Shown one piece after another: positions 6,279-13,753 of a DNA stretch of 64,000 nt. Position numbers and translations under genes: made by a program. Source of the DNA: Rhodoluna limnophila. GTDB lineage: Bacteria; Actinomycetota; Actinomycetes; Actinomycetales; Microbacteriaceae. Numbering within the stretch: position 1 is the stretch's first letter; every line of letters begins with the position of its first letter. Location of the stretch: contig CAMCXL010000004.1 of the NCBI GenBank assembly GCA_945883505.1, positions 62,001-126,000 of the forward strand, read 5' to 3'. The notes under the pieces are model-generated. The model had not been told where the DNA came from, searched no databases, and was given only the letters and a program-made list of their open reading frames with translations.

Positions 6279-7601
6279 ATGAGCTACCCATTACTCGAAG
6301 GCCTAGGCAATCCATTACAGCGAGAAACAGCCCTCGCCCTTGATAAAGCGGATGAGCTTGCCTCATTCCGCAGCGAATTTTTCATCAAAGATGAAAACAT
6401 TTGCTACCTAGATGGAAACTCGCTCGGTCGCTTGCCAGTAAAAACCATCGAGTCAGTCAATCACTTTCTCACTGAAGAGTGGGGCACGGAACTGGTTGAT
6501 GGTTGGAGTCACTGGATCGATGAAGCTCAGCCCGCCGGAGACTTACTAGCTCGAGCGACTCTTGGCGCGGGACCTGGCCAGGTTTTGGTTTGTGATACCA
6601 CCAGCGTTAATTTGTATCAGCTCTGCGTTGCTGCGATTAGGGCAAGACCTGATCGCAAAACAATAATTGTTGACTCAGCAAATTTTCCAACCGACAGGTT
6701 TGTTGTGCAGGGAATCGCCGAGCAGTTTGGGCTAAATCTAATCACCCTTGACACCGACGGTTCCGGTGGTCCTGGAGCAGTCCAGGTCAATTCTGAAAAC
6801 GAGCTAGTCACCCCCGAACTTCTTAAACCTTTGCTAAGCGAAGATGTTGCAATGGTGACCCTCCAGGTGGTGAACTACCGCTCGGGTGCAAGACAAGACA
6901 TCAAGGCAATCACTGATCTGGTCCGGTCTTTCGGCGGCTTGGTGGTTTGGGATGCCTCTCATGCCGGTGGTTCAGTAGAGCTGGACTTCGACGCCAACGG
7001 CGTCGACCTAGCAGTTGGCTGCACCTATAAATACGGCAACGCAGGCCCAGGGTCCCCCGCTTGGCTGTTCGTTCGGAAAGAGCTCCAGTCCGATTTCAAA
7101 GTCCCGATTCAGGGCTGGTTTGCTCAAGACGACCAGTTCGCTATGGGGCCAGCCTTTGATCGAAACTTGGGTATTCGCGGTTTCCAGATCGCAAGCCCTT
7201 CAATCATTGGCATCCGAGGCGTCCAGGCTAGCTACGAAATGATTGAGCGGGCTGGGATCAAGACAATTGCCAAGAAGGCCGCCATCGGAACCGAGTTGAT
7301 GATTGCCCTATTTGACGCCTGGCTTGCCCCACTTGGATTCACTCTTTTGACTCCGCGGGATGCAAGCCGCCGCGGCGGACACGTCACAATTGGCCACCCG
7401 GAGGCTAAGCGAATTGCGGCTGCGCTTAGGCAGTATGCCCAGGTGATTCCGGACTACCGGATGCCAAACTCGATTCGTCTTGCAATCTCTCCTCTTCCAA
7501 CCAGCTACACCGAGGTCTTTGATGGATTTGCTCGCATCAAAGAATCAGTCGAGCGCAAGGATTATGAAAAAATCAAAAACACTGGAAACCGGGTTACCTA
7601 A
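6279..7601 (+). CDS. kynU: Kynureninase
   Basis: CYLDGNSLGRLP, VVWDASHAGGSVELD and CTYKYGNAGPGSPAW motifs typical of kynureninase. Confidence 0.94.
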   Translation: MSYPLLEGLGNPLQRETALALDKADELASFRSEFFIKDENICYLDGNSLGRLPVKTIESVNHFLTEEWGTELVDGWSHWIDEAQPAGDLLARATLGAGPGQVLVCDTTSVNLYQLCVAAIRARPDRKTIIVDSANFPTDRFVVQGIAEQFGLNLITLDTDGSGGPGAVQVNSENELVTPELLKPLLSEDVAMVTLQVVNYRSGARQDIKAITDLVRSFGGLVVWDASHAGGSVELDFDANGVDLAVGCTYKYGNAGPGSPAWLFVRKELQSDFKVPIQGWFAQDDQFAMGPAFDRNLGIRGFQIASPSIIGIRGVQASYEMIERAGIKTIAKKAAIGTELMIALFDAWLAPLGFTLLTPRDASRRGGHVTIGHPEAKRIAAALRQYAQVIPDYRMPNSIRLAISPLPTSYTEVFDGFARIKESVERKDYEKIKNTGNRVT

Positions 7602-8435
7602 ATGACTAACGAACACGACAAAGCAGTCACCTACACCAGCTACCTAAAAGTTGACGAGCTTCTAAAACTTCAGACACCGCTTTCGGATGGTCCCGAGCAC
7701 GATGAACTTTTGTTTATCACCATCCACCAGGTCTATGAACTTTGGTTCAAGCAAATGCTTCACGAGAGTGAAGCGTTGCAGGTTGCTCTGGAGAGTGGGA
7801 ACAGCCACCGATCGCTGGCTCTGCTTGGCCGAATTCGAACCATAATGAAAACCTGTGTTGCACAACTAGATATTTTAGAAACCATGACTCCGTTGCAATT
7901 CAATTCCTTCCGCGGAAGGCTAAGCTCCGCATCGGGTTTTCAATCGGCTCAGTTTAGACAGTTTGAGGCAGTACTTGGAAGGCGCGATCAAGCCGGTGCA
8001 ACTGCAACTCCTGGAACCGGCATGGCAATGGCGGCACATTTGGTGCCAGGCTCGCCCGCCAGGGAAAAAGTAGAGGCTGCCATGGCAAGACCCAGTTTGT
8101 ATGACTCGGCCCTGAAGTATTTCTCCTCTCGCGGTCACGCAATTCCTAAAGAAGTATTGGAGCGCGATGTGACTGTTGGCTATGAGCCGAACGAAAAAGT
8201 GCAAGATGCTCTGCTGGATGCTCACCGCAATGACCCAGAGGCGAATATGGTCGGAGAAGCTTTGGTTGATCTAGACGAAGGTCTTCAGGAGTGGCGCTAT
8301 CGGCACGTCAAAATGGTCGAGCGAACCATCGGAGCCAAGATGGGTTCTGGCGGGTCCTCGGGGGCTGGTTATCTATCCAGCACCCTGTTTCGCCCGGTAT
8401 TTGCTGACCTTTGGGCTATCCGCTCCAGGTTCTAG
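7602..8435 (+). CDS. kynA: Tryptophan 2,3-dioxygenase
   Basis: [23 protein letters not shown] and [18 protein letters not shown] motifs. Confidence 0.95.
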
Positions 8436-9298
8436 GAACTGGCTGAATCGACCACATTCTTCACAAGCATGGCCCTGGTCATTGGCCCAACCCCACCCGG
8501 GTTTGGGGACAGGTAGCCGGCGACGGCTGCTACACCCGGGTCAACATCTCCCACCAGCTGCGCCTGACCACTTGATTCAATTCTGGTAATTCCCACATCT
8601 AGAACTGCTGCGCCTGGCTTTACCCAATCGGCTTTGACAAAATGTGCAACTCCAACTGCCGCCACCACGATGTCGGCTCGACGAACCGAACCTGGAATGT
8701 CCTTGCTTCCGGAGTGAAGTAAAGTCACCGACGCGTCAATTCCCTTTCTGGTAAGAAGTAGGCCCAGTGGGCGACCCACGGTAATGCCTCTTCCAAGAAT
8801 CGCAACTTCTTTGCCAGCGATATCGATCTTGTAGCGACGAAGTAATTCAATAATTCCTGATGGCGTGCAGGGAAGAGGTGAGTTCATTTCACCCGCAACG
8901 CTCAAGACAAGCTTTCCAAGATTGATTGGGTGCAGGCCATCGGCATCCTTGGCAGGATCGATTGCCTCAAGCAGTTCGTTGGTATCGATACCTATCGGAA
9001 GTGGCAGCTGAACTATATACCCGGTGACTTCGGGCGAATCATTGAGCTCGCGAACCGCCCGAAAAATATCGGCCTTTGATGCACTCCCCGGCAAATCAAT
9101 TCGGATGGAGCTTACCCCCACTTCGGCGCAGTCGCGATGCTTACCCGAAACGTAGGAGTGTGAACCTGGGTCATCGCCAACCAGCAAAGTTCCAAGTCCC
9201 GGAGTGATGCCGGATTGCTTTAGCTTTGTTACGCGCTCGGTTAGTTCTAACTTGATGGTCTTGGCTGTTGCCCGGCCATCAAGAATGATCGCGTTCAA
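8432..9298 (-). CDS. folD: Methylenetetrahydrofolate dehydrogenase / cyclohydrolase
   Basis: [20 protein letters not shown] and [12 protein letters not shown] motifs. Confidence 0.96.
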
Positions 9299-9301
9299 GA
9301 A

Positions 9302-10588
9302 TTACCAATTCTCCAGACCCGAGTAAAGCGGGAACTGGTCGGTTAGTTTACGAACCCTAGCTTGCAAAGCTGGAACGTCAGGATTTGGCATCAGAACCTG
9401 AGCGATAATCTCCCCAACCTCGGTGAACTCGGTTGCCCCAAAGCCTCTGGTTGCCAGTGCTGGCGTGCCAATCCGGACACCGGAGGTCACAAGCGGTGGA
9501 CGAGGGTCGTTTGGAACGGAGTTCCGGTTCACGGTAATTCCAACCTCGTGGAGCAGGTTCTCGGTGGTGATTCCATCGATTGGAGCATTTCTTAGGTCAA
9601 CCAGTACCAGGTGAACATCGGTTCCCCCGGTCAGAATCGAGACTCCATTAGCCTTCACGTCGGCCGCAATCAGACGGTCGGCAATGATTCGGGCACCTTC
9701 AATGGTGCGCACCTGGCGCTCCTTGAACTCGTCAGTCATGGCGGCTTTGAAAGCTACCGCCTTGGCTGCAATCACGTGCATCAGCGGACCACCCTGCTGA
9801 CCCGGGAAAACACCCGAGTCAATTTTCTTGGCGAGCTCGGCCTTGGAAAGAATTAGACCCGATCTTGGACCACCGAGTGTTTTGTGCACGGTGGTTGAGA
9901 CAACGTCTGCGTGAGGAACGGGGGAAGGGTGAACCCCGGCTGCAACTAATCCTGCGAAGTGAGCCATGTCAACCCAAAGCTTTGCTCCAACTTCGTCAGC
10001 GATTGATCTAAAGGCTGCGAAATCTAGGTGACGAGAATAGGCCGACCAGCCGGCAATCAAAACAGCGGGCTTGGTTTCAATTGCACGAGCACGAACAATA
10101 TCCATGTCAATCAAGTTTGTGTCGGGGTGTAGCTCATAAGCGTGAGCGTCATACATCTGCCCGGAGAAGTTTAATTTCATACCGTGGGTGAGATGACCAC
10201 CGTGAGCTAGATTCAAACCAAGAATTCGATCTCCCGGTTTTGCAAGGGCCATCATTAGAGCAGCGTTCGCTGTTGCTCCGGAGTGTGGCTGGACGTTGGC
10301 GTGTTCAGCTCCGAATAATTCCTTCGCGCGATCGCGCGCTAGATTCTCTGCGATGTCCACTGCTTCGCAGCCACCGTAGTATCGCTTGCCCGGGTAACCT
10401 TCAGCGTACTTATTGGTAAGAACCGAACCTTGAGCTTCGAGGATTCCTCGAGAAACAAAGTTCTCCGAGGCAATCATCTCTAGGGTGTGACGCTGACGAT
10501 CTAGTTCCTGCTGCAAGACTTGGGCAATTTCCGGATCGGTTTCACTAAGTGGCTTGCTAAAGCTGGAGGAAAGCTTCGTTTCTAACAT
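9302..10588 (-). CDS. glyA: Serine hydroxymethyltransferase; start corrected from ORF-track 10672
   Basis: [33 protein letters not shown] and [11 protein letters not shown] motifs; ATG at 10588 (MLETKLSS) preceded by AAGGAG; upstream codons fall in a riboswitch. Confidence 0.95.
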
Positions 10589-10614
10589 TCGGGGCTCCTT
10601 CAAGGTCTGTAGTT

Positions 10615-10705
10615 CATGAGGATGGCCCAGGCGCACGACCAAGTGTCTCTTCGCTCCCCGATGGAAACCCATCTATAAGCGCCAGTTGCGATAGGGCCAG
10701 CCTAT
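10615..10705 (-). promoter_or_regulatory. ZTP (pfl) riboswitch controlling glyA-folD
   Basis: Minus-strand RNA UCGCAACUGGCG...GAUGGGUUUCCAUCGGGGAGCGA...CGUGCGCCUGGGC matches the conserved pfl core (ACUGGCG, GGGGAGCG, CGCCUGGGC) with a P2-like hairpin GAUGG/CCAUC; it sits directly upstream of glyA. Confidence 0.9.
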
Positions 10706-10823
10706 CAGCCCAATAAATCCGCCACTTTCAACACGTTCGTCATTTGGTGTTCGTAATTCCGAAGTTAGGACTAAAATGGGTTAAGCGTGTTATTTTAGCG
10801 CCGAAAGGACCAGTTTTTTCTCC

Positions 10824-10949
10824 ATGACTGAAACACCAGTAGTGATGCTCGTCGGGGCGGGCATGATTTTCCTAGGAACCCTGGTGGCAGCATGGATTGT
10901 AGCTAGCATCGTTCGGCAGAACCGCAAAGACCGATCCTTCCCAGAATAA
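10824..10949 (+). CDS. Small single-TM membrane protein, 41 aa (MTETPVVMLVGAGMIFLGTLVAAWIVASIVRQNRKDRSFPE)
   Basis: ORF read directly from sequence (below the track cutoff); acidic/hydrophobic/basic topology; preceded by AAAGGA. Confidence 0.55.
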   Translation: MTETPVVMLVGAGMIFLGTLVAAWIVASIVRQNRKDRSFPE

Positions 10950-10962
10950 GCTAAGAAGTCTT

Positions 10963-11823
10963 ATGTCTAAGACTGCCCTGACCCACTGGGTCCTAACCCT
11001 AGTTTGCAAAGATCGTCCGGGTATCGTTCACGCCATTTCTGGCGCCATCGTAAAAGCATCGGGAAACATCACCGAGTCTCACCAGTTCACTTCTGAAGAT
11101 ACCGGACGATTTTTCATGAGACTTCAAATTGAGTCCCCGGTCGAAAGAGCCGAGCTCGAACAAAAAATCGCCCAGGTCACAAAAGAGTTTGGGATGGACT
11201 GGGAACTAGATGTTGTTGGCCGGAAGATGAAGACCCTGGTGCTAGTTTCCAAAGCCGCCCACTGCCTCAACGACTTACTCTTCAGACAGCGCTCTGGACA
11301 ATTGCCAATTCTGATTCCCAAAGTTCTGGCCAACCATGATTCCCTGGGTGAGCTTGCAACTTTCTATGGCATTGACTTTGAATCTCAGGCAATTGATTCC
11401 CCAGAGGATAAGTTGGCTTTTGAAGCTGACCTACGAAAGCTGATTCGGTCCGAAGAAATTGAACTTATTGTTCTGGCCAGATTCATGCAGATTCTGTCTC
11501 CAGAGTTTTGCAAAGAGTTCGCTGGCAAAATAGTAAACATTCACCACTCCTTCCTTCCAGGATTCAAGGGAGCTGACCCCTACGCCCAGGCTCATGCTCG
11601 AGGCGTAAAGCTAATTGGTGCAACCGCACACTTCGTGACCAGTGATCTTGATGAAGGTCCAATCATCGAACAAAACGTGGTTCGAGTTGAGCACGGTGAT
11701 TCGAGAAACCACCTGTTGGCTATCGGTCAAGACGTAGAGTCCAAAACTCTAAGCCAAGCGGTGCGCTGGTTCGCCGAGCGTCGGGTCCTTCTAGACGGTG
11801 CCCGAACCATCATCTTTAGCTAG
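10963..11823 (+). CDS. purU: Formyltetrahydrofolate deformylase
   Basis: N-terminal ACT-like domain (LTLVCKDRPGIVHAISG) plus hydrolase motif IVNIHHSFLPGFKGADPYAQA. Confidence 0.95.
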   Translation: MSKTALTHWVLTLVCKDRPGIVHAISGAIVKASGNITESHQFTSEDTGRFFMRLQIESPVERAELEQKIAQVTKEFGMDWELDVVGRKMKTLVLVSKAAHCLNDLLFRQRSGQLPILIPKVLANHDSLGELATFYGIDFESQAIDSPEDKLAFEADLRKLIRSEEIELIVLARFMQILSPEFCKEFAGKIVNIHHSFLPGFKGADPYAQAHARGVKLIGATAHFVTSDLDEGPIIEQNVVRVEHGDSRNHLLAIGQDVESKTLSQAVRWFAERRVLLDGARTIIFS

Positions 11824-13753
11824 ACAACACACCGGGTATCCCGCGCCTGGCAACAATTAGTCCAGCCACCAGAGCAAATAAGCCCATCCCCAGGAGCCCA
11901 AATATCCAGCCATTTTGGCCAAAGCCGGGCTGAAAACCCTGGGCTGGGATTGTCACTATTTGACTGGCCTGTGGCAAGGAACTGGCCGGTGGGCTCTGAA
12001 AGCTTGGCTGCTGAGGTCTCACCTCACCCAGCTGGACCTCTGGTGGATTGGCCGGGTTCAACGGTTCGGGGACTAAAACAGGCTCAACTTCGGGACTGGA
12101 AATGAGTGGAAACTGATCCTCGTCGCCAGGGATTAGGCCCACCACAGATTCCACCGGATCAGGTTGCAGCACTTGCGGCTCCGAATAAATCGGCTCATCT
12201 CGCACCACTACTTCGGTCACAGTTGGGGAATTCTCGGAAGTTAAATCTTCCTCGGGTTCCTGTGCTACCGGTTCGCTGGGTTCTTCGCTGGGTTCTGGAG
12301 CAGGTTCTTCGGAAGGTTCTGGAGCAGGTGGTTCTGGAACTTCGGCCGTGAAGCTTGTTGTGATTATTGAATTGGGTCCAAGGTTACCTGTTCCATCAGA
12401 TACCGAAAGTGCCTTGAGGCTGAGGGTGAAATCACTTTGTTGACAATCTGCAGTTTCGACCTGCCAGATTGTCGCACTCTGTTGGCTAATCCCCACCAAA
12501 CTGCAGGCTGGACTGGCGGCAGTGAATTCAATTGCTAATAGAGGAAGTGATTCAATTGGCTCGGTAAATTCTAAAACTGATCCTGTTTGATTGATTTCCC
12601 CCCAGCTCGCGGTTGGAGCGATGGTATCAATCAGTAAAGTGCTGGAAGAAAACGATTCGATGGGTCCAGTAACTTCAGAATTTGAAACGGAGTTTGGCCT
12701 TATGGTAATCGATAGCTGTCCTTGATCGCATCCGGAAAAGACCACTTGATAATTTGCTCCAGAACCTGAGAGCGAAGTGCTAAGGCAGGTGCCAGTGCTG
12801 TGGGATAGTTCGATATCTGAGCTATCAAAACCAGACACCGGGCCGTTGAACTGGATTCCAAAAGTTGCCTGGTCGCCCGATAGTTGCGATGTGATGCCCA
12901 AAACCACAGGTGCCAGCTGGTAGCGAATTACTACCTGGCCAGAGCCTGGCCAGATGCCTTGGGAGTGAACGACATTTGAAACCATGGCCGGATCAGTAAA
13001 GGAGGAGCCTCCGCCTCCGCCTCCAGCATCGGTGCAGCAGGAGTCGGTGTCTGAACCGCCACCTCCGCCGCCGAAGTATCCGCCGCCTCCACCGCCTCCG
13101 CCAAAAAGCGAGCTGCTGCCACCTTGGCCACCAGTGCCAAGGCTTCCGGCACTGCCCGAGCTACCGCTACCGTTGGCGGCACCTCCAGCACCTCCCGAAA
13201 GCTGGGAGCCTCCTTGGCCACCAATGCCCTGACCGGTTCGACCATTTAGAGCAACCAGCGCTCCTCCCGATCCACCGCCGGAGCCAAGTCCTGCCCCTCG
13301 GCCACCTCCACCTCCGGCAACAATAATTCTGGATGAAAGATCTAGTGACGTTCGAATATCAGTTGCTCCGCCTCCCGAGCCTTCAACCCCAGAACCAGAT
13401 CCAGCGGTGCCTCCACCGTTAAAACCTCCCGGTATGTTCGCTCCCGAATCACCAGCGCCACCGACGAAGATATATAAAACTTCCGGAACAATAGTTAGGC
13501 CACCGGTGACCTGCCCCCCTCCACCACCGCTTTTTCCACCCTGTGCTCCTGCCGCTTCAAAGGTCAGGTTCTTGGCATTTGCTGGAGGCGTGAAGGTTTG
13601 CATCTGTCCATTGAAGGAAAAAGTCACCGTGCATTTATCCCCGACACAACTTTCTGTGACACTGGCTTGGGAAGGTAAAGGAGACAGCACCGCAAAATAA
13701 AGAGCGAGGGCTGGAACAAGATGGAGAAGTCTTTTAGTTGGCCAATTATTCAT
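11816..13753 (-). CDS. Secreted/cell-surface glycine-rich protein with C-terminal TM anchor
   Basis: Signal peptide, Gly-rich domain ending in GQVVIRY, Ig-like middle region, Pro/Glu-rich stalk, C-terminal hydrophobic helix followed by ARR. Confidence 0.85.
   Translation of the reverse strand: MNNWPTKRLLHLVPALALYFAVLSPLPSQASVTESCVGDKCTVTFSFNGQMQTFTPPANAKNLTFEAAGAQGGKSGGGGGQVTGGLTIVPEVLYIFVGGAGDSGANIPGGFNGGGTAGSGSGVEGSGGGATDIRTSLDLSSRIIVAGGGGGRGAGLGSGGGSGGALVALNGRTGQGIGGQGGSQLSGGAGGAANGSGSSGSAGSLGTGGQGGSSSLFGGGGGGGGYFGGGGGGSDTDSCCTDAGGGGGGSSFTDPAMVSNVVHSQGIWPGSGQVVIRYQLAPVVLGITSQLSGDQATFGIQFNGPVSGFDSSDIELSHSTGTCLSTSLSGSGANYQVVFSGCDQGQLSITIRPNSVSNSEVTGPIESFSSSTLLIDTIAPTASWGEINQTGSVLEFTEPIESLPLLAIEFTAASPACSLVGISQQSATIWQVETADCQQSDFTLSLKALSVSDGTGNLGPNSIITTSFTAEVPEPPAPEPSEEPAPEPSEEPSEPVAQEPEEDLTSENSPTVTEVVVRDEPIYSEPQVLQPDPVESVVGLIPGDEDQFPLISSPEVEPVLVPEPLNPANPPEVQLGEVRPQQPSFQSPPASSLPQASQIVTIPAQGFQPGFGQNGWIFGLLGMGLFALVAGLIVARRGIPGVLSS

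Follow-up and report, generated by a model that had tools for sequence, protein, structure and literature searches.

The window, the whole 64,000-nucleotide stretch that was analyzed, carries on its minus strand the gene glyA, encoding serine hydroxymethyltransferase (9302–10588; NF000586, 582 bits), and folD (8432–9298; NF010789, 440 bits against a cut-off of 401). folD begins 3 nt downstream of glyA, and the two genes probably belong to one operon. Divergent from glyA is purU, encoding formyl-THF deformylase (10963–11823), and purH is found in the genome from which the window comes. The nearest named relative, as judged by GlyA (94% identity), is a Rhodoluna limnophila assembly, family Microbacteriaceae, which makes Rhodoluna or a close relative the most likely source. 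Other genes of the neighborhood are as follows. Directly upstream of purU is a 41-residue ORF with one membrane segment (10824–10949, plus strand; MTETPVVMLVGAGMIFLGTLVAAWI...), and in some relatives, L039 and L042 among them, a small ORF of this kind likewise seems to be oriented divergently from glyA. Adjacent kynureninase and tryptophan 2,3-dioxygenase genes (6279–8435, plus strand) are convergent with folD; both profile scores are below the NCBIfam equivalog cut-offs. On the minus strand, 11816–13753 encodes a long glycine-rich protein, probably a surface protein, with a proline/glutamate-repeat region and signal-like N-terminal and hydrophobic C-terminal segments.

The leader of glyA matches the Rfam family RF01750 (ZMP-ZTP) from 10699 to 10618 on the minus strand. 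The initial annotation had assigned this leader to the ZTP (pfl) aptamer class, linked it to glyA-folD, and proposed a search with the Rfam ZMP-ZTP covariance model; the match is significant (54.0 bits; cut-off, 39) and spans the full model (1–86 of 86), and the NCBIfam profiles place both genes downstream of the aptamer. The E-value is 5.4e-6 when the window is searched against all 4227 Rfam families and 2.4e-8 when the whole genome is searched with RF01750 alone, far beyond chance expectation. No other site in the window matches any Rfam family, and the 1.22 Mb genome has a single RF01750 copy, that of the glyA leader. By its sequence, the leader is a genuine ZTP riboswitch of an already-known type, and it is expected to bind the ligand of that class.

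The 5′ subdomain (10691–10651), defined by the Rfam alignment and the sequence and conserved among relatives, includes two helices. P1 consists of 4 bp between UCGC (10691–10688) and GCGA (10654–10651), and P2 pairs GAUGG (10673–10669) with CCAUC (10664–10660). The sequence CGCAACUGGCG occupies 10690–10680, and the GAUGG-GUUU-CCAUC hairpin (10673–10660) leads into GGGGAGCGA. In the 3′ subdomain (10641–10623 in the Rfam alignment), P3 is formed by UGGUC (10641–10637) and GGCCA (10627–10623), with CGUGCGCCUGGGC at 10637–10625. The minus-strand motifs that had been quoted as the pfl/ZTP core are all present where they had been placed. Loop bases CGCC (10633–10630) presumably form a pseudoknot with GGCG (10683–10680), an assignment that we take over from solved ZTP riboswitches; the bases themselves are found in all leaders. 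The core set is complete in the window, comprising P1/P2 with ACUGGCG and GGGGAGC, P3 with CGCCUGGGC, and the GGCG-CGCC bases. The same core elements are found in 29 leaders from the genus, with the GGGG stretch slightly altered in some.

The longest reading frame opens glyA at 10672, inside P2 and 28 codons ahead of the ATG at 10588–10586. The initial annotation had preferred the latter ATG, preceded by AAGGAG (10600–10595), as the conserved start, and we agree. If the 10672 start were genuine, the region would encode the N-terminus of GlyA and the RNA match would be a coincidence, and the window's frame is indeed open from 10672. However, among the 29 genus leaders, no more than 10 keep the 10672 ATG in frame with the conserved start (a distance divisible by three), and a stop interrupts the upstream frame in five. 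The Shine-Dalgarno (SD) sequence and the protein N-terminus, in contrast, are conserved at 10588 in the genus, and the structural RNA match is located alike in relatives. Since the extension frame is not retained in relatives while the ribosome-binding site (RBS) and N-terminus are, ATG 10588 is the gene start and, on this comparative evidence, the segment 10589–10672 is RNA leader, not protein. A coding role for it is hardly credible.

A generic sigma-70 promoter scan gave nothing; the glyA promoter emerged only when relatives were compared. Its extended −10 element, TGATAGGCT (10707–10699, minus strand), consists of TG (10707–10706) and the hexamer TAGGCT (10704–10699). The interval between the end of the TAnnnT hexamer and the first P1 pair is exactly 7 nt in all 29 genus leaders, and the hexamer ends 6–8 nt ahead of P1 in 89 of 94 family leaders, as it does in 1.7% of shuffled flanks. 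Relatives without the riboswitch retain a promoter of the same type, and in about ten of them glyA is leaderless, its ATG lying 6–8 nt past the hexamer. Given the −10 spacing and these leaderless relatives, the 5′ end of the glyA transcript is most likely at about 10692 (±1–2 nt). The RNA would then start at P1 and, therefore, the outer 5′ part of the Rfam match, 10699–10693, which is made up of the last base of the hexamer and the gap before the putative transcription start, would be promoter DNA. P1 is very short throughout the 94 parsed family leaders.

No intrinsic terminator lies between the aptamer and glyA on the minus strand (10480–10980 scanned), as had been noted from the sequence, and P3 and the SD lie 22 nt apart (10622–10601), close to the 20 nt or so first estimated. 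For the window leader, the fold predicted in the absence of ligand pairs the GGGC of P3 (10628–10625) and UCCUCA (10622–10617), a candidate anti-SD that appears in minimum-free-energy folds, with UG-A-AGGA-GCCC, and the SD is buried. A candidate alternative OFF pairing, suggestive only, would join UCGGGG of the aptamer core (10661–10656) to the complementary CCCCGA (10594–10589) in the SD-AUG spacer. In a folding model of 27 genus leaders, locking the aptamer raises the mean unpaired fraction of the SD-to-AUG segment from 0.33 to 0.61; the segment opens further in 26 of the 27, and in the window the fraction goes from 0.34 to 0.69. The leaders gain more opening with their own downstream parts than with swapped ones (p 0.006; the same 27). 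In a locked model extended by 30 nt into the coding sequence, however, the window's SD itself stays paired, and the stability of the window leader's fold is unremarkable, not above that of shuffled sequence.

Across the family, complementarity of the leader to the RBS region is non-random. The swap test of linker against RBS used one leader per genus from 50 genera, with the swap tests partly corrected for shared ancestry. The stretch from the 3′ strand of P1 to P3 pairs with the 35 nt immediately upstream of the start at −12.4 kcal/mol, against −10.6 for swapped partners (z −5.0), and the longest linker-RBS helix averages 5.3 in own pairs and 4.5 in swapped pairs (z 6.5; n = 50). Perfect linker-RBS helices of 9–11 bp are found in L018, L021, L161, and L184. 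The linker-to-RBS signal is absent from the swap test within the Rhodoluna genus leaders. There, complementarity is instead seen between the aptamer core (CGGGGAGC or CAGGGAGC) and the SD-AUG spacer (CCCCGA or UUCCC), with z −5.1 relative to swapped pairs and concordance in 27 of 27 leaders. Because about three changes on the tree separate the two states, too few events for a phylogenetic pair test, core-to-spacer pairing in the genus is suggestive only. The excess is confined to the genus; family-wide, core-to-spacer complementarity does not exceed that of swapped pairs. The P3 strand likewise shows no excess complementarity to the RBS over swapped pairs, a result that is uninformative on P3 pairing since the strand is nearly invariant. 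Pairing with the aptamer is not clearly the sole role of the CCCC that follows the SD, as riboswitch-less relatives retain AGGAGCCCA.

RF01750 matches above the cut-off are present in 175 of 200 Microbacteriaceae genomes, and glyA is downstream of the aptamer in 90 of the 94 parsed family leaders. By a simple test, the gene that follows the aptamer did not score as glyA at L012, L167, L178, and L197. Some family genomes have two aptamer copies, so that there is likely a second target, for example, purH. Within the genus, the riboswitch is found in only 30 of 60 genomes, some of which are incomplete; in 23, the glyA upstream region is readable and lacks it, and two of these are single-contig genomes. 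Presence and absence on the glyA tree require 8 changes, at least 7 of them on well-supported branches, and one sister pair consists of G010, with the riboswitch, and G208, without. Repeated loss would be the simpler reading, since the family at large has the riboswitch; transfer of glyA could explain some changes. The absences are not explained by a missing AICAR pathway: the switch-less genomes have purH and, therefore, the ligand pathway was not lost. Among the genus upstream regions (L032–L061 and L091–L102), glyA is leaderless in several switch-less genomes and has a short leader with an SD in others. In G154 and G092, CATCGCAAC is retained directly downstream of the promoter and may be the 5′ remnant of an aptamer that was deleted.

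We propose, with a probability of about 0.85, that glyA-folD is controlled by a ZTP riboswitch whose first bases are those of the transcript and whose ligand frees the RBS and raises translation. When 10-formyl-THF is scarce, PurH would stall and ZMP/ZTP would rise. The ligand would lock P1, P3, and the pseudoknot joining them, the ribosome-binding region would be freed, and glyA would be translated more, with folD translation probably raised likewise. Upregulation of the two enzymes would restore one-carbon units. In the ligand-free state, portions of both aptamer and leader would be paired with the RBS, and there would be little initiation. The aptamer class, the glyA start, the lack of an intrinsic terminator, and the link to glyA-folD, as given in the initial annotation, agree with Rfam, with the family models, and with a set of about 120 related leaders, and the translational mode that it suggested is still the probable one. 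It is tempting to go further, at slightly less than even odds, and propose a layout specific to the Microbacteriaceae. Transcription would start on a minimal P1, and the 3′ strand of P1 and the linker would pair beside the SD to give the OFF state; in Rhodoluna, the pairing would have moved to the core and the SD-AUG spacer, with repeated loss of the aptamer from between the retained promoter and glyA.

A real ZTP riboswitch could instead act mainly on transcription, with termination that depends on Rho or on pausing, either in the leader or near the beginning of glyA. The well-studied ZTP riboswitches do regulate transcription, and Rho sites lie beyond the reach of the terminator scans used. 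This is nevertheless unlikely, given that the minus strand has no intrinsic terminator, that complementarity is concentrated beside the SD across 50 genera, and that the distance from aptamer to SD is short in the genus. Quite improbable is that the aptamer is a decaying or inactive relic, heading for loss as in sister lineages. The half of the genus genomes without a riboswitch (some incomplete), the repeated changes on the glyA tree, the very short P1, and the weak switching predicted for the window leader all fit such a relic; however, the core elements are intact and the score is well above the cut-off, the near relatives G202 and G221 both retain the riboswitch, and the short P1 is common to the family and hence no sign of decay.

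For the translational switch that we favor, the proposed RBS pairing is amenable to compensatory swaps. The analysis corrects the start of glyA and adds a promoter-anchored ZTP switch, a sensor that probably turns on folate one-carbon enzymes in a freshwater actinobacterium when formyl-folate is short. Sister genomes with and without the switch, both with purH, provide a natural experiment, in streamlined freshwater bacteria, on the consequences when glyA loses its response to ZTP. A literature search of partial coverage brought up neither a short P1 anchored at the promoter, nor the predicted platform of RBS pairing, nor the patchy distribution.

The Rhodoluna glyA-folD riboswitch belongs to a known class with known targets, since glyA and folD were listed as targets of the pfl RNA in 2010 (Weinberg et al., PMC2864571); the ligand was identified after 2010 (review, PMC7266159). 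It shares with the ZMP-ZTP/pfl motif (RF01750; PMC2864571) the aptamer and the target genes, but here P1 has about 4 bp and begins at the inferred transcription start, and RBS pairing is predicted in place of a terminator. The same aptamer is found in the ZTP riboswitches of Clostridium beijerinckii pfl (PMC10085676) and Thermosinus carboxydivorans (PMC7337938). There, too, a downstream strand would compete with P3, as the GGGC-GCCC pairing would here. Those riboswitches control transcription, whereas in Rhodoluna the competing helix is predicted to bury the SD and not to form a terminator.
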